Of a DNA stretch of 33,802 nt, positions 10,724 through 33,802 are shown piece by piece. Under the pieces are notes generated by a model. That model was not told where the DNA came from, did not search any database, and saw nothing but the letters and a program-made list of their open reading frames with translations. How positions within the stretch are numbered: position 1 is the stretch's first letter; each line of letters begins with the position of its first letter. The stretch comes from Elusimicrobiota bacterium (GTDB lineage: Bacteria > Elusimicrobiota > Elusimicrobia > JACQJP01): contig JACQJP010000029.1 of NCBI GenBank assembly GCA_016204975.1, forward strand, positions 1 through 33,802, read 5' to 3'. Both the position numbers and the translations under genes were made by a program.

Positions 10724-13700
10724 CTCTTCTCGAAACCTTTGGCAGTTGGTTCTGTGGGGGGTCGCCTTCCTCTTCCTAATAATGGCCTTTCAGAGCCTGC
10801 GCCAAGGCGACCAAGAAGATCAGATTCCCTACTCCCGATTCAAGCAACTCCTTCGTAAAAACCAAGTCCTCTCGGTCACCGTGGGCTCCGACAAGATCCA
10901 GGGCCAATACACATCGGAAAAGGGAGAAAGCAAAAAGTTCCGCACCGTCCCCCTGCCGGACTCCAAACTGGTGGAGGAGCTGGACGCCCATCAAGTCTCC
11001 AACTACTCCGGGGAGCCGGACAAGAGCTGGCTCATGAGCATCCTGATGAACGTCGGATGGATCTTTCTTTTTTTTCTTCTCTGGTGGTTTTTGATCGTCC
11101 GACAGGTCCAGATGGGGGGCAAGCAGGCGCTTTCCTTCGGGCGTTCCCGATCCAAAATGCAGAATACCAAAAAATCCAAGATCACCTTTGCGGATGTGGC
11201 GGGATGCGACGAGGCCAAGGAGGAGCTGCAGGAGATCATCGAGTTCCTGAAAAATCCGGCCAAGTTCCAAAAGCTGGGCGGCAAAATCCCGCGCGGGGTG
11301 CTTCTCTACGGCATACCCGGCACGGGCAAGACCTTGTTGGCCCGGGCCGTGGCCGGGGAGGCCGGGGTGCCGTTTTTCAGCTCCTCCGGCTCGGAATTTG
11401 TGGAGATGTTCGTGGGGGTCGGCGCTTCTGTCACCGGCGATACGCCGGTGCTCATCCGCAAAAACGGGCGAACCAGACTCTTGCCTATTGCAGAGTTTGT
11501 AGACGCCTACTACCGCGATGGGGAGCACAACAGGGCGATCCCTATTGAGGACGTCGAGACCTTGGGGTTTTTTGAGCGAGAGAGCAAGTTCAAGGGTTCA
11601 AAGAAAAAGACCTACTTTGGCGGCAGTCGCTGGATTCGGGTTTCGGAAGTGTTTCGCCACAAGGCAGGCAAGGTATTTGAGATTCATTACCTGGGAGGAC
11701 AGATCCGAACCACCGAAGACCACAGCATTTTCATACGCACACGCAACGGCATCCGAGCCGTGGCCACCCGCGACCTAAAACCAGGGGACCGGCTGGTTTG
11801 CTTGCCCTATCTCTCCCGCAAACTTCACCATCACCGAGACAAAAAGATCATTCCCTTCGAAATCCGTGGCCACTGCTGGGAGCAATCCTTTGAGCCCGTA
11901 GAGTTGCCGGTGTGGTCCGAGCCTCCCGAATGGGCGGAAAAGTATGCCTTTGCCATAAATCAAAAAGCCTTCCGGAGCCAGCACGCCATTGCCCAAGCAA
12001 TCGGCGTCTCTCAGGCCACGGTTGGAAACTGGCAGAGATTTTTTCACAAGCCACAGGCCCTCTCCGATCAGCGAGGCTTCAGTCGTATTCCGCAAAAGGT
12101 CATGCTTTCACCTCAACTTCTCACGCTCTTTGGACTCTACACCGCTGAAGGACGATCGAACGGCGGACCGGAATTTTGCTTCGGCGCTCACGAGTCGGCC
12201 CTTCACCAAGAAACCCTGCATCTTATGCGCCAGATATTCGGGGTGCAGGGGCGCGTGGAAACCACCGACACCAACTCGGTCCGCTTGCATTTTCCCCCTC
12301 CTTTGTTAGGAGAGTTCTTTGAATCTCACTGCGGCAACGGTGCCCACCACAAGCACGTACCTGAGTTTCTCTGGAATTGTCCCAGGGAATACTTTTTGGC
12401 CTACCTGGAAGGTTGGCTGAAGGGAGATGGATATGCCGCAGCCGATGGAAAACTCTCCGGCACCTCGGTCTCCAAGCGACTGATCAGGGAACTCCTCTGG
12501 CTGTGCTCGATGCACGGCATCAAAGCAGGCATGCGCAAGATGGTATTTCCTGCAGGCCGACAGATTCGTAAAAACGGAAAGCCACTCCCCGAGACGACCG
12601 CCTGGAACCTGATCCTCTCCAAGAGCTGGAACCCTTTCCGACCCGGCCCACAATCCCCACAATCTAAATCCCTCATTGTCCGCCGCGTCGTAGAAAAACC
12701 TCACGCGGGCTACGTCTATGACCTTTGCGGATGCGACGGCGAGGCGTTCTTCGGCGGGGACAAACCCATCCTCCTCCACAATAGTCGAGTGCGGGATCTT
12801 TTTGAGCAGGCCAAGAAAAACTCCCCGGCGGTCATCTTCGTGGATGAGTTGGATGCGGTCGGACGTTACCGCTTTGCGGGAATCGGTGGGGGCCACGACG
12901 AAAGAGAGCAGACCTTAAACCAGCTCCTGGTGGAGTTGGACGGCTTCGACACCAAGGAAGGGGTGATCTTTCTGGGCAGCACCAACCGCCCCGACGTCAT
13001 CGACCCCGCCCTGCTGCGCCCGGGACGCTTCGACCGGCACGTCAACATCCCCCCTCCGGACATCAAAGGCCGCGAACAGATATTGAAGGTGCACGCTAAA
13101 AAGATCAAGCTGGCCCCGGAGGCGGACCTCTCCATCATCGCCAGAAGGACCCCCGGCTTTGTGGGGGCGGATCTGGCCAACCTGGTCAACGAGGGGGCGC
13201 TCCTGGCCGCGCGGCGCAACAAGCCTGCCGTGGAGATGCCGGAGCTGGAGGAGGCCATTGACCGGGTGATGGCAGGCCCCCAGCGTAAAAGCCGCCTGAT
13301 CTCGGACAAGGAAAAAAAGATCGTGGCCTATCACGAGGCGGGCCACGCCCTGGTGGCGAAGCTCAGCGCCCACGCCGATCCGGTGCATAAGGTCTCCATC
13401 ATCCCCCGGGGACCCGCCCTGGGCTATACCCTGCAGCTGCCGACCGAAGACCGCCTGCTCAACACCCAGTCCCAACTCACCCACCGCATTCAGGTTCTGC
13501 TGGGAGGACGCTGCGCGGAGGAAGTCGTCTTTCTAAAGGAGATCACCACCGGCGCCCAGGACGACCTGGAAAAGGCCACCCACCTGGCCCACAAGATGGT
13601 GACGGAATTCGGAATGAGCCCGCTGGGTCCGGTGAGCTACAAAAGGCCGGACGGAGAGGTCTTTTTGGGGCGAGACCTGGTCAGGGAGAGAGGCCTTTCC

Positions 13701-27770: not shown

Positions 27771-28541
27771 ATGGAACAAATTCCACTGAAGGCGGAAGAA
27801 AGACCTACCGAAAAAAGGGCCTTCTTAAACCAGTTGAGAAAACAGGGGAGGGTTCCGGCAATCCTCTACGGCCACGGTCCCACCTTGGGCCTTGCGGTGG
27901 TGGAGAGGGATCTCTTGAAGGCCTTGCGGACCCGCGCCGGAACCAACGTGCTCATCAAACTGGAGCATCCCAAAGGCACAGACACCGTGATGTTGAAAGA
28001 GATCCAACACCATGTGGTCCACCACAAAATCCTTCACGTGGATTTTCAGCGCATCTCGCTCAAGGAGAAGATCGAAATCAAAGTCGCAGTGGAGGTGACC
28101 GGGGAGGCCCCGGGGGTGAAACTGCAGGGAGGGGTCCTGGAGCACTTGTTGCGGGAAATCTCCATCCGCTGCCTGCCCACAAAAATCCCGGACTCCGTCC
28201 CGGTGGACGTCTCGCACCTCGAGATCGGAAAACACATCAGCGTCGGGGACCTCGCCGTCCCGGAGGGCGTGGAGATCCTCCACGCGCCGGACCAGATCAT
28301 TGTCCATATCGTGGCTCCCACCAAGGTGGAGGAACCTCCAAAACCGGAAGAGGCGGCTCTGGCCTCAGAGGCCTCGGAGCCGGAGGTGATCGCCAGGGGC
28401 AAAAAGGAGGAGGAAGAAAAGCCTGAGGGAGCCCCCGCCAAGCCGCCGGCACTCCCCGATCGTAGTCGGGTCCCACAGGCCGCAGCCCCAGCCAAGCCCG
28501 ATCCCCCAAAAAAGGAAGGCCAGAAAGAGCCCAAAAAATAG
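27771..28541 (+). CDS. rplY: 50S ribosomal protein L25 (CTC/TL5 type) with a repeat in its tail
   Basis: 256 residues. The N-terminal L25 domain includes LRKQGRVPAILYG, the 5S rRNA-binding segment. The beta-rich CTC domain follows (about 95-190: KIEIKVAVEVTGEAPGVKLQGG...EISIRCLP...IPDSVPVDVS). The last 65 residues are a low-complexity acidic/proline/lysine tail. Within the tail a partial family-1 repeat is read as ALPDRSRVPQA. The ribosomal domains are untouched, so the tail insertion should be neutral. Confidence 0.94.
   Translation: MEQIPLKAEERPTEKRAFLNQLRKQGRVPAILYGHGPTLGLAVVERDLLKALRTRAGTNVLIKLEHPKGTDTVMLKEIQHHVVHHKILHVDFQRISLKEKIEIKVAVEVTGEAPGVKLQGGVLEHLLREISIRCLPTKIPDSVPVDVSHLEIGKHISVGDLAVPEGVEILHAPDQIIVHIVAPTKVEEPPKPEEAALASEASEPEVIARGKKEEEEKPEGAPAKPPALPDRSRVPQAAAPAKPDPPKKEGQKEPKK
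28445..28482 (+). repeat. family-1 palindromic element, partial copy in rplY
   Basis: GCCGGCACTCCCCGATCGTAGTCGGG and the following TCCCACAGGCCG match the family-1 core, with one change in the stem (C to T) that keeps a G-T pair. The left part (CCAAAGGCGTGTTGA) and the 10-bp flanking repeats are lost or diverged. It is read in frame a (ALPDRSRVPQA). Confidence 0.85.
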
Positions 28542-28561
28542 ACCAGAAATAAAGACGTCGA

Positions 28562-29167
28562 GTGCTTGAAAACTCCCGATCCGCCCCCCATCCAGAACCT
28601 TCCGTCCGGCTTCTGGTGGGATTGGGCAATCCTGGACCCTCCTATATTCACACCCGGCACAACCTGGGGTTTCAGGTGTTGGACTCCCTGGCGGCGCAGG
28701 AGAAGACCTTCTGGAGATCCTGGAAAAACCAGGCCCGGGTGGCGGAGATTGGCGGGATACAGCTCCTCAAGCCCTTGCGGTACATGAACCGATCGGGGGA
28801 GGTGCTCCAAAGCTTTCTGGAGACCCATCCCCAAGACCCCAGCCGGCTTCTGGTGCTCTATGATGATCTCGACCTTCCGCTGGGGACTCTGCGCCTAAGG
28901 CGATCCGGATCCTCCGGAGGGCATCACGGAATGGACTCCGTTTTAAACAGGCTACGCACCCAAGAGGTTCCGCGCCTGCGCTTAGGCATAGGCCCTGCGC
29001 CGGATCAAAGGGACCCCATCGAATTCGTCTTGGAACCCTTTGCGAAAACTGAGGAGGCTAAGGCACAGGAGATGCGTTGCCGAGCCGTCCAGTGCATTCA
29101 GACCCTTCTGACCGGAGATTGGGAAAGGGCCATGAATCTCTACAATACCCAGAACCTCCCCTCATGA
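28562..29167 (+). CDS. pth: peptidyl-tRNA hydrolase
   Basis: 201 residues from GTG 28562. No ATG is available before the conserved core. The core reads VRLLVGLGNPGPSYIHTRHNLGFQVLD and includes the catalytic histidine in TRHN. LLKPLRYMNRSGE and YDDLDLPLGTLRLRRSGSSGGHHGMDSV are also typical. It releases peptides from stalled peptidyl-tRNA. The 14 residues before the core are unusual and may not be translated if an atypical start is used. Its stop overlaps the next small gene as ATGA. Confidence 0.93.
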   Translation: MLENSRSAPHPEPSVRLLVGLGNPGPSYIHTRHNLGFQVLDSLAAQEKTFWRSWKNQARVAEIGGIQLLKPLRYMNRSGEVLQSFLETHPQDPSRLLVLYDDLDLPLGTLRLRRSGSSGGHHGMDSVLNRLRTQEVPRLRLGIGPAPDQRDPIEFVLEPFAKTEEAKAQEMRCRAVQCIQTLLTGDWERAMNLYNTQNLPS

Positions 29168-29490
29168 CCCGGACCTATTGCCTACTGAGCCTGCTGTTGG
29201 GTCTCGCCGGTCTGGGTTATCTTTACCGCATGGACCTCATCTGCCGCTTCCACGCCATTTTAAAAAACACCCTCCTTAACGACTCCGTCATTGCCCTGGA
29301 GCGAAGGAAAATCGGGCTCTTTTTGCTTTTCCTCTCCCTGTTTTTCCTATACAAGGCGCTGGCCCGGCCTGCGGGACCCGACTACGGTCGGGGAGTGCCG
29401 GCTCAACACGCCTTTGGGGCCCGGCCTGTGGGACCCGACTACGGTCGGGGAGTGCCGGCTCAACACGCCTTTGGGGCCCGGCCTCGATGA
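29164..29490 (+). CDS. small two-helix membrane protein whose C-terminus is a tandem palindromic repeat
   Basis: 108 residues from ATG 29164, inside the longer 29077 ORF. The start overlaps the pth stop as ATGA and the end overlaps pmbA the same way. Two hydrophobic helices (YCLLSLLLGLAGLGYLY and KIGLFLLFLSLFFLY) flank a basic loop. The last about 40 residues are two 19-residue copies of GPDYGRGVPAQHAFGARPV, produced entirely by family-1 elements in reverse orientation. The authentic protein probably ended near YKALARP. Function unknown. It may be a real gene, since both overlaps keep the coupling to its neighbours. Confidence 0.65.
   Translation: MTRTYCLLSLLLGLAGLGYLYRMDLICRFHAILKNTLLNDSVIALERRKIGLFLLFLSLFFLYKALARPAGPDYGRGVPAQHAFGARPVGPDYGRGVPAQHAFGARPR
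29361..29484 (-). repeat. two tandem family-1 palindromic elements, 57-bp period, 10-bp GGCCCGGCCT at each boundary
   Basis: GGCCCGGCCT occurs at 29361, 29418 and 29475, exactly 57 bp (19 codons) apart. Each 47-bp interior carries the perfect hairpin CCCGAC-TACG-GTCGGG (as read on the plus strand) and GCCGGCTCAACACGCC. The two units differ at one position (GCGGG against GTGGG). This is the best-preserved view of the full unit and shows its boundaries. Confidence 0.9.
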
Positions 29491-30860
29491 AACAGGAACA
29501 ATTAAAAGAAGAAGCAATCTCCCTGGACCTTTTCGCTGCAGAAGCCCTGGATTGGATCCGGGGCCAGGAAAAAGATCTGGAGGCGGAGATATTCCTCGCC
29601 AAGGGCGTGGAAAGAACCGCAGAACTCAAGGAAAACAAACCCTTTCTGGTCCACCAAGCCCAGGAATGCGGCGTGGGGTTACGTCTCTTCCGACAGGGCC
29701 GCCGGGCCTTCTCCTATGCGGAGGAGCTCTCCCTACCGGCCTTCCAACACCTCTTCGAGAAGGTGCGTTGCTATCTCCCTCACGCAGCATACGACCCCTA
29801 CCACCATCTGCCGAAGAGTCCTCCGGGATCGGTGCGGGCAAACGCCCCGCTACCGATGGATCCTCAGTTGTTGCGGCGGCCCATCTCCGAGCTTTGGGAT
29901 CAGCTTCAGACACAAGCCCAGGCGGCCCTCTCTCAGGACCGCCGAGTCAAAAAGGTTCTCCGCCTGGCACTGAGCGAATCCCTCGGCGAAAGCTACATCG
30001 CCAACAGCCAGGGTCTGAAAGCGCAAGAGCTGGGGAGCTTCGTTTCTGCGGGGATATCACTCGTCGCGGAAGTAAACTCGGAAATTCAGACCGGATCCGC
30101 CTATTCTTTGAAGCGCTTCTCCGAGGATCTCTCCCTTCCGGATCTGCGAACCCAAGCGGTGGAACGCGCGGTGTCCCTCTTGAATGGAAAAAAGATCCCG
30201 TCCCGGCGCAGGGCGGTGCTGTTTGATCCCTGGGCCGCCAGTGAGTTTCTCTCGGAACTCTCCGCCATGCTGTGCGCCGACCAGATATTGAAAGGGAAAT
30301 CCCTGCTGGCCAATCGCCTCAAGACCCGGGTGGCCTCCCCCCACGTGCACTTGACCGACGATCCCGGGCTCCCTCGGGGATACGCCAGCAGCCTCTACGA
30401 TGGGGAGGGCCTCCCGACCCAAAAAAGACATCTCATCCAAAACGGCATCCTCCAGGACTATCTCCATGACACCTACACCGCCACCCGGATGGGCCAGGAA
30501 AGGCCCGGATCCGCCTCCCGCAACTCCTTTCGCAGTCTGCCCCACCCCGCCCCCTCCAACTTCGTTCTGGAGCCCGGCCCCAAAAAACGCCAGGAGTTGA
30601 TCCGGGACACTTCCGAAGGCATCCTTCTCCAGGAGGTCATGGGGATGCACACGGCAGATCCCATCTCGGGAGAGTTCTCCGTGGCGGCCTCCGGCCTCCA
30701 CATCCAAAACGGAGAACTCCGACAGGCCCTCCAGGGGGCCATGCTCTCCGGAAACTTTTTGGAGCTTTTGAAAAACGTGGACGCGGTAGCAGAGGATCTG
30801 ACCTTTTATGGAGGGTGGGGCTCCCCCACCTTTCGAGTCCAAGACCTGATGGTCGCTTAA
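29487..30860 (+). CDS. pmbA: TldD/PmbA-family metallopeptidase, PmbA (TldE)-like subunit
   Basis: 457 residues, normal for the family. The C-terminal half has the family features VLFDPWAASEFLSELSAML, ILQDYLHDTYTATRMG, RNSFR and the ending GGWGSPTFRVQDLMVA. The HExxxH zinc motif of TldD is not seen, so it is the PmbA/TldE type that forms the outer wall of the TldD/TldE protease chamber. It processes peptides such as modified natural products, or degrades unfolded small peptides. A TldD partner is not in the window. The start overlaps the upstream small gene as ATGA. Confidence 0.88.
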   Translation: MKQEQLKEEAISLDLFAAEALDWIRGQEKDLEAEIFLAKGVERTAELKENKPFLVHQAQECGVGLRLFRQGRRAFSYAEELSLPAFQHLFEKVRCYLPHAAYDPYHHLPKSPPGSVRANAPLPMDPQLLRRPISELWDQLQTQAQAALSQDRRVKKVLRLALSESLGESYIANSQGLKAQELGSFVSAGISLVAEVNSEIQTGSAYSLKRFSEDLSLPDLRTQAVERAVSLLNGKKIPSRRRAVLFDPWAASEFLSELSAMLCADQILKGKSLLANRLKTRVASPHVHLTDDPGLPRGYASSLYDGEGLPTQKRHLIQNGILQDYLHDTYTATRMGQERPGSASRNSFRSLPHPAPSNFVLEPGPKKRQELIRDTSEGILLQEVMGMHTADPISGEFSVAASGLHIQNGELRQALQGAMLSGNFLELLKNVDAVAEDLTFYGGWGSPTFRVQDLMVA

Positions 30861-30886
30861 ACCTAAGAGCCTAAGGAGGTTTAAAC

Positions 30887-31057
30887 ATGCTGGATCCAGA
30901 GCTGCTAAAAATCTTAGCTTGTCCGGTTTGTAAGACGGAGGTGGAATATCAAAGAGAGGCGCAAAGAATTCTCTGCAGAAAGTGCGGCCGTAGATACCCC
31001 GTCAAAGACGACATCCCGATCATGCTGGTCGAAGAGGCGGAACACCCACCCACCTAG
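30887..31057 (+). CDS. small zinc-ribbon protein of the Trm112/YcaR type
   Basis: 56 residues, too short for the ORF track. An excellent ribosome-binding site (AAGGAGGT) lies eight bases before ATG 30887. It reads LDPELLKILACPVCKTEVE, then CRKCGRRYPVKDDIPIMLVEEA. Two CxxC pairs form a zinc ribbon, and 'LLxILACPxC...YPVxDDIPIML' is the family signature. Related proteins activate methyltransferases or are of unknown role in lipid A gene clusters. Its TAG overlaps the TAG of the convergent lipoprotein gene by two bases. Confidence 0.9.
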   Translation: MLDPELLKILACPVCKTEVEYQREAQRILCRKCGRRYPVKDDIPIMLVEEAEHPPT

Positions 31058-31473
31058 TTCGCAGTGTCAATCAGAATATCCACCCCCCTCCCTCCCGGAG
31101 AAACCGCGCCCTGGTAGACCCCGAACAGATCGCCGGCGGCCAAAGGGCCGGCGCTCCCATCCCGATCAATGCGGGCACTGACATAGAAGGGGCCTTTCCA
31201 GGGAAGACTCGGGAGCACCCGGTCCGGGGGCCCCATCCGATAGGAGAGGGGAAACCGAGGATTGACGATCCGGACGACCGCGATGGGGATGCCGCCGCGA
31301 TCGGTTGCCACGACAAAGAGAACCGTATTGGGACGACCGGCCCTCCGGGACAACTCCTCCTGAAGCGCAATCGTCCCGGAAATAGAAAGGTCGGAAGAGG
31401 GGAAAAATCGGCCGCAGCCGGCAAGAAGCGCCGCTCCCAAAGCGGCAAAGACTAAAACAGCCACCCTGCTCAC
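31054..31473 (-). CDS. small putative lipoprotein
   Basis: 139 residues from GTG 31473, which overlaps the upstream pduO stop as GTGA. The 185-residue ORF is an extension through pduO. The N-terminus is a lipoprotein signal with a clear lipobox (VAVLVFAALGAALLAGC), so Cys is the lipidated residue. The rest has beta-strand character (LSISGTIAL, TVLFVVATD, GPFYVSARIDRDG, ILIDTAN) and resembles small carbohydrate-binding or transthyretin-like folds only in a general way. I do not recognise the family. Confidence 0.75.
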   Translation of the reverse strand: MSRVAVLVFAALGAALLAGCGRFFPSSDLSISGTIALQEELSRRAGRPNTVLFVVATDRGGIPIAVVRIVNPRFPLSYRMGPPDRVLPSLPWKGPFYVSARIDRDGSAGPLAAGDLFGVYQGAVSPGGRGVDILIDTAN

Positions 31474-32096
31474 TTTGGTTCGACGGAGCTTCGCCAGATC
31501 TCCTCTTTTTTCTGCTGGAGCTGGTTGACCCAGCGAGCCACCACAAAAAGCCAGTCCGACAAACGATTCACATACCGGAGAGCCTCCGGGGAAACCTCCT
31601 CCGCTTCCCAAAGGCGTACCAGCGCCCTCTCCGCCCGGCGGCAGACGCAGCGGGCATGATGAAAGGAGGCTCCCACGGAACCCCCGCCAGGCAGGATGAA
31701 ATTCTTCAAGGGGGGAAGTTTTTCCGAATATTCGTCCATCTCCCTCTCCAGACGCTCAGTCGCCTGTGGGACCCGACTACGGTCGGGGAGTGCCGGCTCA
31801 ACATGCCTTTGGGGCCCGGCCTGTGGGGAAAGCGCCGCCCCCTTGCGGGAAGTTCCCGCGGGATCCGCCAACTCCGCACCCAACTCAAAAAGCTCTCCCT
31901 GAATCCCCTGGAGCCGTTGCCGCACATCCTCCCACGGCTCTCCCAAAGGGACTTGAGAGGTCAGAATCCCCAGCCAGGCATTCAGCTCATCTACCTCACC
32001 GTAGGCGGACACCCGCAAACCGCCCTTGGAGACCCGAACCCCCGTTAAAAGTCCCGTCTGCCCCCGGTCCCCCGTTTTCGTATAAATCTTTGTCAT
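31470..32096 (-). CDS. pduO: PduO-type ATP:cob(I)alamin adenosyltransferase with an internal repeat insertion
   Basis: 208 residues. The ATP-binding start TKIYTKTGDRGQTGLLTG and the C-terminal ARCVCRRAERALVRL and NRLSDWLFVVAR are signatures of this family. It makes adenosylcobalamin, which implies a B12-dependent enzyme elsewhere. Between LADPAGTS and the conserved ERLEREMDEYSEKLPPLKNFILPGG lies QAGPQRHVEPALPDRSRVPQ, the product of a family-1 element in a surface loop. Normal proteins of the family are about 180-190 residues. Catalytic segments are intact. Confidence 0.92.
   Translation of the reverse strand: MTKIYTKTGDRGQTGLLTGVRVSKGGLRVSAYGEVDELNAWLGILTSQVPLGEPWEDVRQRLQGIQGELFELGAELADPAGTSRKGAALSPQAGPQRHVEPALPDRSRVPQATERLEREMDEYSEKLPPLKNFILPGGGSVGASFHHARCVCRRAERALVRLWEAEEVSPEALRYVNRLSDWLFVVARWVNQLQQKKEEIWRSSVEPK
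31762..31822 (-). repeat. family-1 palindromic element in the pduO gene
   Basis: The plus strand reads GTGGGACCCGACTACGGTCGG, then GGAGTGCCGGCTCAACATGCC and TTTGGGGCCCGGCCT. Its right boundary is the intact 10-mer GGCCCGGCCT (31813-31822), and the left boundary is degenerate (CGCCT). The element has the same orientation as the gene and is read in frame a (VEPALPDRSRVPQA). Confidence 0.9.
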
Positions 32097-32131
32097 TTAG
32101 GGCAGCCCCCGGCCAGCCCCTTCTCTATAAG

Positions 32132-32159
32132 TTTACAAAAGTCCGGAAGATCATACAAA
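32132..32159 (+). promoter_or_regulatory. candidate promoter before the SAM hydrolase fusion gene
   Basis: TTTACA (32132-32137), a 16-bp spacer and TACAAA (32154-32159) lie in the 85-bp divergent gap, about 22 bp before ATG 32182. The surrounding sequence is locally AT-rich. It is a plausible sigma70-type pair but unproven. Confidence 0.3.
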
Positions 32160-32181
32160 ATTTGCTATCCTACTTCTCTCA

Positions 32182-33802
32182 ATGGGTTTCCCCATTGTCC
32201 TGCTGACGGACTTCGGCACCCAGGATCCTTACGTAGGCATCCTAAAAGGAGTTATCCTCCGGCAAAGCTCTAAAAACCCACTCATCGATCTCACCCATGA
32301 AGTCCCCCCACAGGACGTTTCCAGCGCCGCCTACATCCTGTTGACCAGCTTCCAGTTCTTCCCCCAAAATACCCTCTTCATGGTGGTTGTGGATCCCGGG
32401 GTGGGGACCCGGAGAAAAATTCTGTATGTGCGAACTGCCCGCCACCAGTTTTTGGCGCCGGACAACGGCGTCCTCACTTGGGCCCTGCAGAAGGAAGACA
32501 TCCACCAGATCCTATCGGTGGAAAATAAAGACCTATTTCTTTCCCCCTTAAGTCAAACCTTTCACGGAAGGGATATCTTCGCCCCCGTGGCCGCCGCATT
32601 GGCTGGGGGCCTCCCCTTTAGCGAGCTAGGCCCCCCCACTGCCCTGCAGCAGACCCTCCCCTTTCCCCAGCCCCAACGCCATCAGAGGGGCTGGCGGGGA
32701 GAAGTCCTCCACATTGACCGATTCGGAAACCTGGTGACCAACCTCACCCGGCAGGAGCTCGCCTCGCTTTCCAAGCCCGTCCTGCAAATCGGCAGGCACC
32801 GCATCCACGGACTTTCCCACTCCTACCAAGAGACTCCCAAAGGGAAAGCCCTGGCCCTCCTCGGCTCCTCCGGCTTTCTGGAGCTCTCCCTCTGCCAGGG
32901 AAACGCCCAAAAAAACCTCCGGGCTCGCCGGGGGACCCCCGTTTTTTTACGCTCTTGGCTCTCCATCCTCTGCCTTAGCCTGTGTGCCCCAGCTCTTCCC
33001 ACCTGCGCACTCTCCGCAGAGCTACGAGTACCGGCCGGGGGGCCAGCGGCCCCCACCGTGCCGGAGGGCCCCATCGTGCCGGCACACTGGGCGGAGGAGA
33101 TATTCCAAAAACACTCCGTCTTCTGGGACGGCAATCGCACGGACCCCACCACCTCTGCGCACGACCAGCAAGATGCCACCGCAGCAAACCATTGGATGCC
33201 GGGCCCCAAAAGCGTGTTGAGCCGGCACTCCCCGACCGTAGTCGGGTCCCGCAGGCCGGGCAGCCGCAGAGGTGGCGGGGCCTCCGCCGCACTGCTGCTG
33301 GCTCAGGCCCAAACCCCCAAACCATCCATCTGGGTGCAAGATCCTTGGGACACCCCATGGAGAACAGAGAAGCAGCTGCAACTTCTAAAGGAGAAACAGC
33401 CCTCCTCCGGCTTTCGCTTCGCGGTGGTGGGAGACTCCCGCCCGGAGTGGCACCGCAGCATCATCTATCCCGCGCGCCTCATCTCCAAAACTCCGCTCTT
33501 GAAGAACCTCCCCCTCCTTCGAGGCGCTCCCACCTACCTGCCGGAGGTGTCCGAGCGGGTCTTTGAGCGGTTTTTGGAGCAGATCAAAAAATCTCAGGTA
33601 GATTTCACCATGCACCTGGGGGACCTGGTGACCCGGGGCCGGGAAGAAGAGTATCTCACTTTCCTAAATCAACTGAGCCGCCGTGCCCCGACCCCCTTTC
33701 TGACCACCATCGGCAACCACGAGCTCACGCGGGCCGGACCCCAAAGGCGTGTGGAGCCGGCACTCCCCGACCGTAGTCGGGTCCCGCAGGCCGGGCCCCA
33801 AA
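32182..33802 (+). CDS. SAM hydrolase (DUF62) domain fused in frame to a metallophosphoesterase domain (3' end outside window)
   Basis: The frame is open from ATG 32182 to the window edge (540 codons), which is why the ORF track misses it. Residues 1-257 are a complete S-adenosyl-L-methionine hydroxide adenosyltransferase: LLTDFGTQDPYVGILKGVIL, VVVDPGVGTRR, APDNGVLTW, FHGRDIFAPVAAALA, IDRFGNLVTNL. Then comes a hydrophobic signal-like segment (SWLSILCLSLCAPALPTCALSA) and a long linker holding one family-2 and one family-1 repeat. A metallophosphoesterase domain follows (FRFAVVGDSRPE, MHLGDLVTRGRE, TTIGNHE). A second family-1 element lies right after GNHE. No ATG, GTG or TTG begins the second domain near the signal segment, so either the fusion is real or a stop/start was lost. 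Confidence 0.85.
   Translation, partial: MGFPIVLLTDFGTQDPYVGILKGVILRQSSKNPLIDLTHEVPPQDVSSAAYILLTSFQFFPQNTLFMVVVDPGVGTRRKILYVRTARHQFLAPDNGVLTWALQKEDIHQILSVENKDLFLSPLSQTFHGRDIFAPVAAALAGGLPFSELGPPTALQQTLPFPQPQRHQRGWRGEVLHIDRFGNLVTNLTRQELASLSKPVLQIGRHRIHGLSHSYQETPKGKALALLGSSGFLELSLCQGNAQKNLRARRGTPVFLRSWLSILCLSLCAPALPTCALSAELRVPAGGPAAPTVPEGPIVPAHWAEEIFQKHSVFWDGNRTDPTTSAHDQQDATAANHWMPGPKSVLSRHSPTVVGSRRPGSRRGGGASAALLLAQAQTPKPSIWVQDPWDTPWRTEKQLQLLKEKQPSSGFRFAVVGDSRPEWHRSIIYPARLISKTPLLKNLPLLRGAPTYLPEVSERVFERFLEQIKKSQVDFTMHLGDLVTRGREEEYLTFLNQLSRRAPTPFLTTIGNHELTRAGPQRRVEPALPDRSRVPQAGPQ
33012..33082 (+). repeat. family-2 in-frame repeat (copy D) in the fusion gene linker
   Basis: CTCCGCAGAGCT (33012-33023) is followed by a GAGTACCGGCC stretch, then the hairpin GGGGGCC-AGC-GGCCCCC. 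CGTGCCGG is repeated at 33057 and 33075, 18 bp apart. The frame read is SAELRVPAGGPAAP. The left and right outer boundaries are not clear. Confidence 0.5.
33198..33261 (+). repeat. family-1 palindromic element in the fusion gene, read in frame b
   Basis: The 47-bp interior (33206-33252) is full length and ends in CCCGACCGTAGTCGGGTCCCGC. It is bounded by GCCGGGCC on the left and AGGCCGGGC on the right. Here the host frame gives SRHSPTVVGSRRPG, different from the ALPDRSRVPQA frame of the other forward copies, and still without a stop codon. Confidence 0.92.
33731..33802 (+). repeat. family-1 palindromic element at the right edge of the window
   Basis: The left 10-mer GGGCCGGACC (33731-33740) is a variant of AGGCCGGGCC. 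The interior (33741-33787) is complete, and the right 10-mer AGGCCGGGCC (33788-33797) is intact. The next five bases, CCAAA, match the start of another unit, so a tandem copy may continue beyond the window. It is read in frame a (VEPALPDRSRVPQAGPQ), immediately after the GNHE metal-binding motif of the phosphoesterase. Confidence 0.92.

Follow-up and report, generated by a model that had tools for sequence, protein, structure and literature searches.

Contig JACQJP010000029.1 of an Elusimicrobiota bacterium, analysed here over its whole length of 33,802 bp (the window), carries a palindromic unit with a period of 57 bp, copies of which lie in frame inside unrelated protein-coding genes, essential ones among them. 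That this unit is an insertion element we regard as very probable, since the copies are many, orthologues of the host genes lack the inserted residues and a clean 57-bp empty site exists in the same genome. The whole account, in which the unit is a non-autonomous mobile palindromic element that moves by the mechanism proposed below, is in our judgement about evenly poised. The phenomenon itself is known from intragenic repetitive extragenic palindromic (REP) sequences and from the Rickettsia palindromic elements (RPEs), and it is found here in a different lineage with a different sequence. What is new is that the insertion sites resemble the unit's own head-to-tail junction and that the retained reading frames differ from those that the target sites offer.

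The window is the entire contig C6 of the host draft genome (G000; 1,496,991 bases in 55 contigs, 86.9% complete). The unit can be written C-TGYGGGACCCGACTACGGTCGGGGAGTGCCGGCTCMACACGCCTTTGGGGYCCGGCC-T or, in element orientation and with its parts set apart, C-TGYGGGA-CCCGAC-TACG-GTCGGG-GAGTGCCGGCTCMACACGCCTTTGGGGYCCGGCC-T. The genome-wide search proposed by an earlier sequence-only reading of the window was run with the 23-bp core CCCGACTACGNTCGGGGAGTGCC, allowing up to three mismatches, and returned 53 copies, every one within two mismatches, while the reversed core used as a control returned none, a result far outside what chance would give; a 72-bp query gave 49 matches. The copies diverge from their consensus by about 3.6% on average (about 2 of 57 positions) and are dispersed across many contigs in both orientations, with distinct flanks and point variants in each. 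They form 47 blocks, which are single units or head-to-tail tandem pairs with a 57-bp period, and the junction between paired units reads ...GGGGYCCGGC-CTGYGGGACC... (in short, CCGGC-CTGYGG, the hyphen marking the boundary). Nearly every copy has a perfect CCCGAC/GTCGGG stem, which is preceded, two bases 5', by the tetranucleotide GTGG or GCGG. A second possible hairpin, GCCGG/CCGGC, appears on folding with weak covariation support, and the folding energy of the whole unit is modestly better than that of shuffled sequences (z from -1.5 to -2.1). The two ends of the unit, CTGYGGGA and GGYCCGGC, do not form an inverted repeat, and window positions 28000-33802 gave no gathering-score match to the structured RNA families of Rfam 15.

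How widely is the unit distributed? Among 60 genomes (its own and 59 others of the class), one other carrier was found, G010, which belongs to a different family. An exact-pattern scan of 84,980 species, which perhaps excluded the genome of origin by design and misses more diverged versions, returned only Elusimicrobia bacterium NC_groundwater_1151_Ag_S-0.1um_50_28, the same G010. Viral contigs, plasmids and phages yielded no match, and no published account of an Elusimicrobia element of this kind turned up in a literature search. Most G010 units, too, are 57 bp long, and 3 of 12 copies lie in strongly coding sequence. The stems of these copies have changed on both sides, to CCCGAT/ATCGGG, CCCAAC/GTTGGG and CCCAAT/ATTGGG: the pair at positions 14 and 19 is CG in four copies and TA in eight, the pair at positions 12 and 21 is GC in nine and AT in three, and all 12 copies remain paired. 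These compensatory changes support a functional role for the predicted hairpin.

A record of insertion at the DNA level was found in a second repeat family of about 178 bp. Three members, at C12:21703-21936 (stretch L091), C54:6846-7080 (L106) and C30:57203-57433 (L097), carry the unit at a common site, and a paralogue on C18, from position 13445 onward (L093), is without it. The difference between them is exactly 57 bp and the empty site reads ...CG-CT-CCGGCAA...; therefore, the net gain is 57 bp, with CT on both sides, and this corresponds either to a two-base duplication or to insertion between C and T. The 178-bp repeat is itself similar to a miniature inverted-repeat transposable element (MITE), with the termini CTTTTGCAAAA...TTTGCAAAAG, and has left a trace in the window at 32108-32140.

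At the protein level, orthologue alignments of the kind that the sequence-only reading had called for gave a concordant picture. The peptide inserted in PduO is absent from 19 relatives in the class, and the bacterial PduO structure 3ci1 aligns with a gap across the inserted residues; the site is a loop of variable length, where the exact homology of the adjoining residues is uncertain. In Mfd, with inserts at residues 408-446 and 936-955, the alignable relatives in the class read straight through, as in LGIQS-(38 residues)-REEAGFGQDCLVLEFAG against MGIHSSEESRQGPGFRSQDCILVSYRG in the relatives and, at the second site, EEISQ-(19 residues)-GGSLQ; the peptides are also absent from the Protein Data Bank (PDB) chain in the alignment. 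The RecG insert, EDRRPPQAQ-AGPQRRVEPALPDRSRVPQ-ENL, lies in the wedge domain, where the corresponding segment of structure 1gm5 is shorter. The copy in valyl-tRNA synthetase is a less clean case, as it falls in the region after HRIPVYYCGNCHQ that is unaligned to structure 1gax and the gap there exceeds 19 residues. For the RluD-type pseudouridine synthase, the alignment starts after the insert and shows only its position between domains. The possibility that the unit is ancestral protein sequence or an artefact of assembly could draw on the frequent occurrence of contig ends within copies; with the peptides missing from orthologues and PDB chains, and with copies that differ from one another in flanks and point variants and score well for coding to either side, we find it hardly credible.

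Another important question is what the unit does to the genes that it enters. To score the hosts, each block was removed in silico and coding potential was computed in six frames across the empty site; a block was counted as strictly intragenic when the whole open reading frame (ORF) scored at least 40 and each side comprised 15 or more codons with a local coding score above zero. Twenty-four of the 47 blocks qualified, and the frame stays open through the insert in all 24. Adding the Pfam-supported blocks below these thresholds brings the intragenic total to about 32, and about 15 blocks are intergenic, within another repeat or ambiguous. The copies are thus not mostly intergenic with chance coding overlap, nor are their peptides shared with orthologues, the two outcomes that the earlier reading had named as fatal to it. 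The stretches around copies, on which coding context was studied, are about 79% coding by simple calling, and therefore the intragenic majority alone indicates no preference for genes. The notable feature is the retention of intragenic insertions in frame. As anticipated from the sequence, a period of 57 bp adds 19 codons and preserves the frame. It is also true that the unit is open in five of its six frames, with stops in frame -2; a 57-mer this rich in GC would nevertheless be so by chance in about 40% of cases by our estimate, and we rejected the open frames as a sign of design.

The frames in use are informative in a different way. In the 24 strict blocks, frame -0 is used 11 times, -1 six times, +2 four times, +1 twice, +0 once and -2 never. 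Target-like genic sites would offer these frames in proportions of approximately 0.26, 0.09, 0.10, 0.15, 0.29 and 0.11, respectively, and the two distributions differ with a Monte Carlo p of ~0.002, a value that is approximate because copies that sit in one gene, as some do, are not entirely independent. Frame +0, which yields the cysteine-containing peptide LWDPTTVGECRLNTPLGPG, is depleted, and the stop frame is unused. This bias is the best evidence in our analysis that the inserted sequences are translated and that selection filters them. Could the peptide itself then be what is selected, as a linker, a localisation signal or a regulatory tag, with the DNA spreading because it is useful? 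Several hosts are repair or recombination proteins (Mfd, RecG, AddA, AddB and DprA) and the preferred frames are hydrophilic, as this explanation would have it; but five different peptides in five frames occur in unrelated proteins, few of the G010 copies lie in strongly coding sequence, and, among the variants of the unit, synonymous changes are not over-represented in any frame. We consider it very improbable. The variant patterns gave no signal of selection at the peptide level, and therefore no single peptide seems to be conserved: the inserted peptides seem to be passengers without a conserved function.

The sequence-only reading had described 10-bp boundaries, AGGCCGGGCC; as a clean repeat these did not survive. 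What flanks the copies as a direct repeat is part of the head-to-tail junction of the unit itself; its length varies from 0 to 18 bp, and in most cases it includes at least CT. The host flanks of 39 usable blocks were compared with this junction, and random CT sites in the same DNA served as the control. The mean matching run through the insertion site is 7.1 bases against 3.0 at random sites, and runs of at least seven bases occur in 46% of blocks against 1.7%. Matches are over-represented between positions -6 and +6, approximately, with 85% of blocks having C at -1, 67% G at +3 and 62% G at +5; about 90% of the right flanks show CT. The run to the left of the site does not correlate in length with that to the right (r 0.01), and many sites share only 2-4 bp with the junction. 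Among in-frame copies, the match length modulo three takes all values (0, 1 and 2), so the match is not simply extra inserted sequence, and the net gain is a multiple of three regardless of repeat length, a point borne out by the 57-bp empty site. On the same ground we rejected ragged-end insertion, where the junction repeats would belong to a longer insert of variable length.

These data bear on whether an enzyme is needed at all. Replication slippage or template switching at microhomologies that the hairpin unit shares with GC-rich sites, combined with homologous recombination with tandem arrays, would account for the tandem pairs and for junction homology of variable length at the ends. It would also fit a solo 19-bp junction, GCCCGGCCTGTGGGACCCG, that stands without a unit in addA (C8:52132-52150; L089:10133-10151), encodes RVPQAG in the same frame as the neighbouring copies and is possibly the scar of a lost copy, as slipped loss between flanking repeats would leave. 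Enzyme-free spread is clearly unlikely all the same: long or short, the homology goes with a gain in multiples of 57 bp, at many sites it amounts to just 2-4 bp, and the copies occupy many contigs in both orientations.

The mechanism that we propose is as follows. The unit would insert as exactly 57 bp, or as a 114-bp head-to-tail pair, at CT dinucleotides, with preference for targets whose surrounding bases resemble the junction CCGGC-CTGYGG. It would be excised and re-inserted as a single strand or a circle cut between C and T, and an HUH transposase of the Y1, REP type, acting in trans, may recognise GYGG and the CCCGAC-TACG-GTCGGG hairpin in the manner of TnpA-REP. Genic insertions would owe their survival solely to a length divisible by three and to tolerated frames that encode peptides of 19 residues, mostly hydrophilic, which would be accommodated in loops and linkers, while copies in the stop frame or in bad places would be lost by selection. 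TnpA-REP joins strands at C-T and needs a GTAG-like tag and a hairpin (PMC8266576), and a REP of Pseudomonas fluorescens starts with GTGGGA followed by its palindrome (PMC3116915). By this analogy a Y1/REP-type enzyme is our tentative candidate for the mobiliser, with somewhat less than an even chance of being the right one.

Several points weigh against this proposal. No Y1_Tnp domain was detected at E<=1 in G000, a genome 86.9% complete, and the element does not border any of the three Y1 genes of G010. REPs lie chiefly between genes (PMC3733652), whereas the 57-bp unit is mostly intragenic, and a target preference beyond CT is outside the TnpA-REP model. At four sites (C55_33327, C8_46666, C17_12800 and C8_28195) the junction homology extends over 13-18 bp, which is too long for chance pre-existing targets and suggests remnants of earlier units. 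Finally, the case for mobility is built on the genome of one host strain. As a separate observation, the Y1 (RAYT-like) genes of G010 on C4 and C84 (L130 and L131), resembling REP-associated tyrosine transposases (RAYTs), are flanked by inverted GGGGACAGACCCC and GGGGTCAGGTCTTTC repeats that are unrelated to the unit.

The target rule would be better explained if a site-specific recombinase recombined a 57-bp donor, circular or in tandem and with joined ends that would read GGGGCCCGGC-CTGYGGGACCC, with att-like chromosomal sites that resemble this junction; the enzyme, supplied in trans, could be a tyrosine, serine or bridge-RNA (IS110-type) recombinase. The target homology extends on both sides of the CT core, from -6 to +6, and the junction contains an imperfect dyad, GGYCC-GGCCTGYG-GGRCC. 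The exact 57-bp gain, the head-to-tail tandems and the direct junction repeats at copy ends are likewise as expected, and G000 encodes XerC-like and XerD-like proteins and a third tyrosine recombinase. Nevertheless, the Transposase_20 domain of IS110 had no match in either carrier, none of the recombinase genes of G000 is linked to the element by evidence, and the extent of homology varies widely, from 0 to 18 bp. As a whole, we hold this explanation to be possible but doubtful. Its more specific form, a gene-less 57-bp cassette that homes by site-specific recombination into junction-like sites, including those in essential genes, and whose length and stop-free frames keep the proteins working, seems to us unlikely; if true, it would make the unit a genic, frame-preserving recombination cassette and not a transposon remnant. 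The domain of the third tyrosine recombinase lies in a 460-residue open frame (G000 C46:19742-20230; L183) with weak family matches only.

Returning to the unit as a mobile element, with which known systems can it be compared? RPEs are palindromes scattered over a small genome that have inserted in frame in many genes, unrelated to each other and essential ones included, and their mobiliser is unknown (PMC10969869; PMC3767692). The 57-bp unit is also palindromic and in frame in many unrelated ORFs without breaking them, and the comparison with RPEs drawn by the sequence-only reading holds as an analogy of behaviour; in the scan of 84,980 species, the unit's exact pattern matched one Elusimicrobia metagenome-assembled genome and nothing else. 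The main RPE families are about 100-150 bp long, with one RPE-4 copy listed at 84 bp (PMC3767692), whereas our unit is shorter, belongs to another phylum, uses five reading frames and shows measurable target homology to its own junction. The likeness to REPs mobilised by TnpA-REP (RAYT, an HUH enzyme related to IS200/IS605) concerns structure: CT ends, asymmetric ends, a GTGG/GCGG tag just 5' of a perfect 6-bp stem and, as in P. fluorescens, a GTGGGA start. The tag fits loosely, GTGG being a variant of GTAG, and the empty site CG-CT-CCGG, together with the CT of the right flanks, would agree with C-T ends. Intragenic REPs are also known; their numbers are highest in O. terrae and R. conorii, and repair genes host many of them (PMC3733652). 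However, REPs are often arranged as inverted doublets, whereas our unit has a fixed length and forms head-to-tail pairs, and no RAYT/Y1 gene flanked by it was found in either carrier. Like MITEs, the unit is short, dispersed, hairpin-forming and without a transposase gene, but it lacks terminal inverted repeats and a host-derived target-site duplication, its flanking repeats being unit sequence. In PARCEL, palindromic DNA is translated as a repeated peptide (PMC2996958), but as tandem arrays of 25 amphipathic residues, unlike single or double inserts of 19 residues in five frames of ordinary genes. The unit works like an RPE, is built like a REP and fits the full definition of neither.

How palindromic elements enter genes without killing them has been an open question since the Rickettsia elements were described. 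The unit provides an example in a different phylum, and as its length is fixed, its empty site exact, its hairpin conserved and its target rule measurable, the mechanism becomes testable in vitro. It also constitutes a natural insertion-scanning experiment, in which 19-residue peptides are tolerated in Mfd, RecG, AddA, valyl-tRNA synthetase and PduO.

According to Pfam assignments, the host genes outside the window include mfd with four copies (including a tandem pair in the RID domain), addA with three, an AddB-like gene, recG, dprA, pilM, the valyl-tRNA synthetase gene valS, and genes for an amidase_2 protein, two glycosyltransferases, a PorV-like protein, a DeoC/LacD aldolase, a peptidase MA/TPR protein, WaaA, saccharopine dehydrogenase and MltA (two copies). 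In an S41 peptidase the copy lies within the signal-peptide region (MKKIH-...-LKTVLGALL), and in the RluD-type pseudouridine synthase it lies between the S4 and catalytic domains. Many of these hosts are recombination or repair genes (mfd, addA, addB, recG and dprA), located at L101:2-3364, L089:4245-10726, L073:5233-7404 and L093:4662-6353. A FolC-like protein of the Mur-ligase family is also a host, and a second allele or paralogue, on contig C2, has two more copies. The two versions (L087, C2:4757-5063; L094, C20:1-147) are 96% identical over 147 bp and carry the unit at a common site, a second unit being nearby in the C2 version; they are strain variants or paralogues.

Within the window, all six copies reported by the sequence-only reading are present inside coding frames. 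A partial unit of 38 bp (28445..28482, - strand) belongs to the C-terminal tail of rplY (L25/TL5 family; 27771-28541, +) and encodes PALPDRSRVPQA in frame. A tandem pair with a 57-bp period (29369..29425 and 29426..29482, both +) lies in frame at the C-terminus of a small membrane protein, whose ORF (29077-29490, +) has no Pfam match. The unit at 31764..31820 (+) is antisense to pduO, the cobalamin adenosyltransferase gene (31470-32096, -), and reads AGPQRHVEPALPDRSRVPQ. The remaining two are in the ORF at 32182-33802 (+): one at 33198..33254 (-), between the SAM_HAT and metallophosphatase parts, reads PGPKSVLSRHSPTVVGSRR in frame -1, and the other at 33733..33789 (-), inside the metallophosphatase domain, gives GNHELTR-AGPQRRVEPALPDRSRVPQ in frame -0. 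The start of a further tandem unit (33790..33802, -) coincides with the contig end, an assembly break. The last 71 bases of the window (33732-33802) are the reverse complement of the start of contig C43 (L101), on which the phosphatase gene resumes after two tandem units. Thus, C6 and C43, the latter carrying mfd, are probably adjacent and joined via tandem units in the phosphatase gene. This ORF combines an S-adenosylmethionine hydroxide adenosyltransferase and a calcineurin-like phosphatase, with the signal-peptide-like sequence SWLSILCLSLCAPALPTCALS between them, and represents either a real fusion or a lost stop. Contigs C17 and C43 share an exact end overlap of 141 bp.

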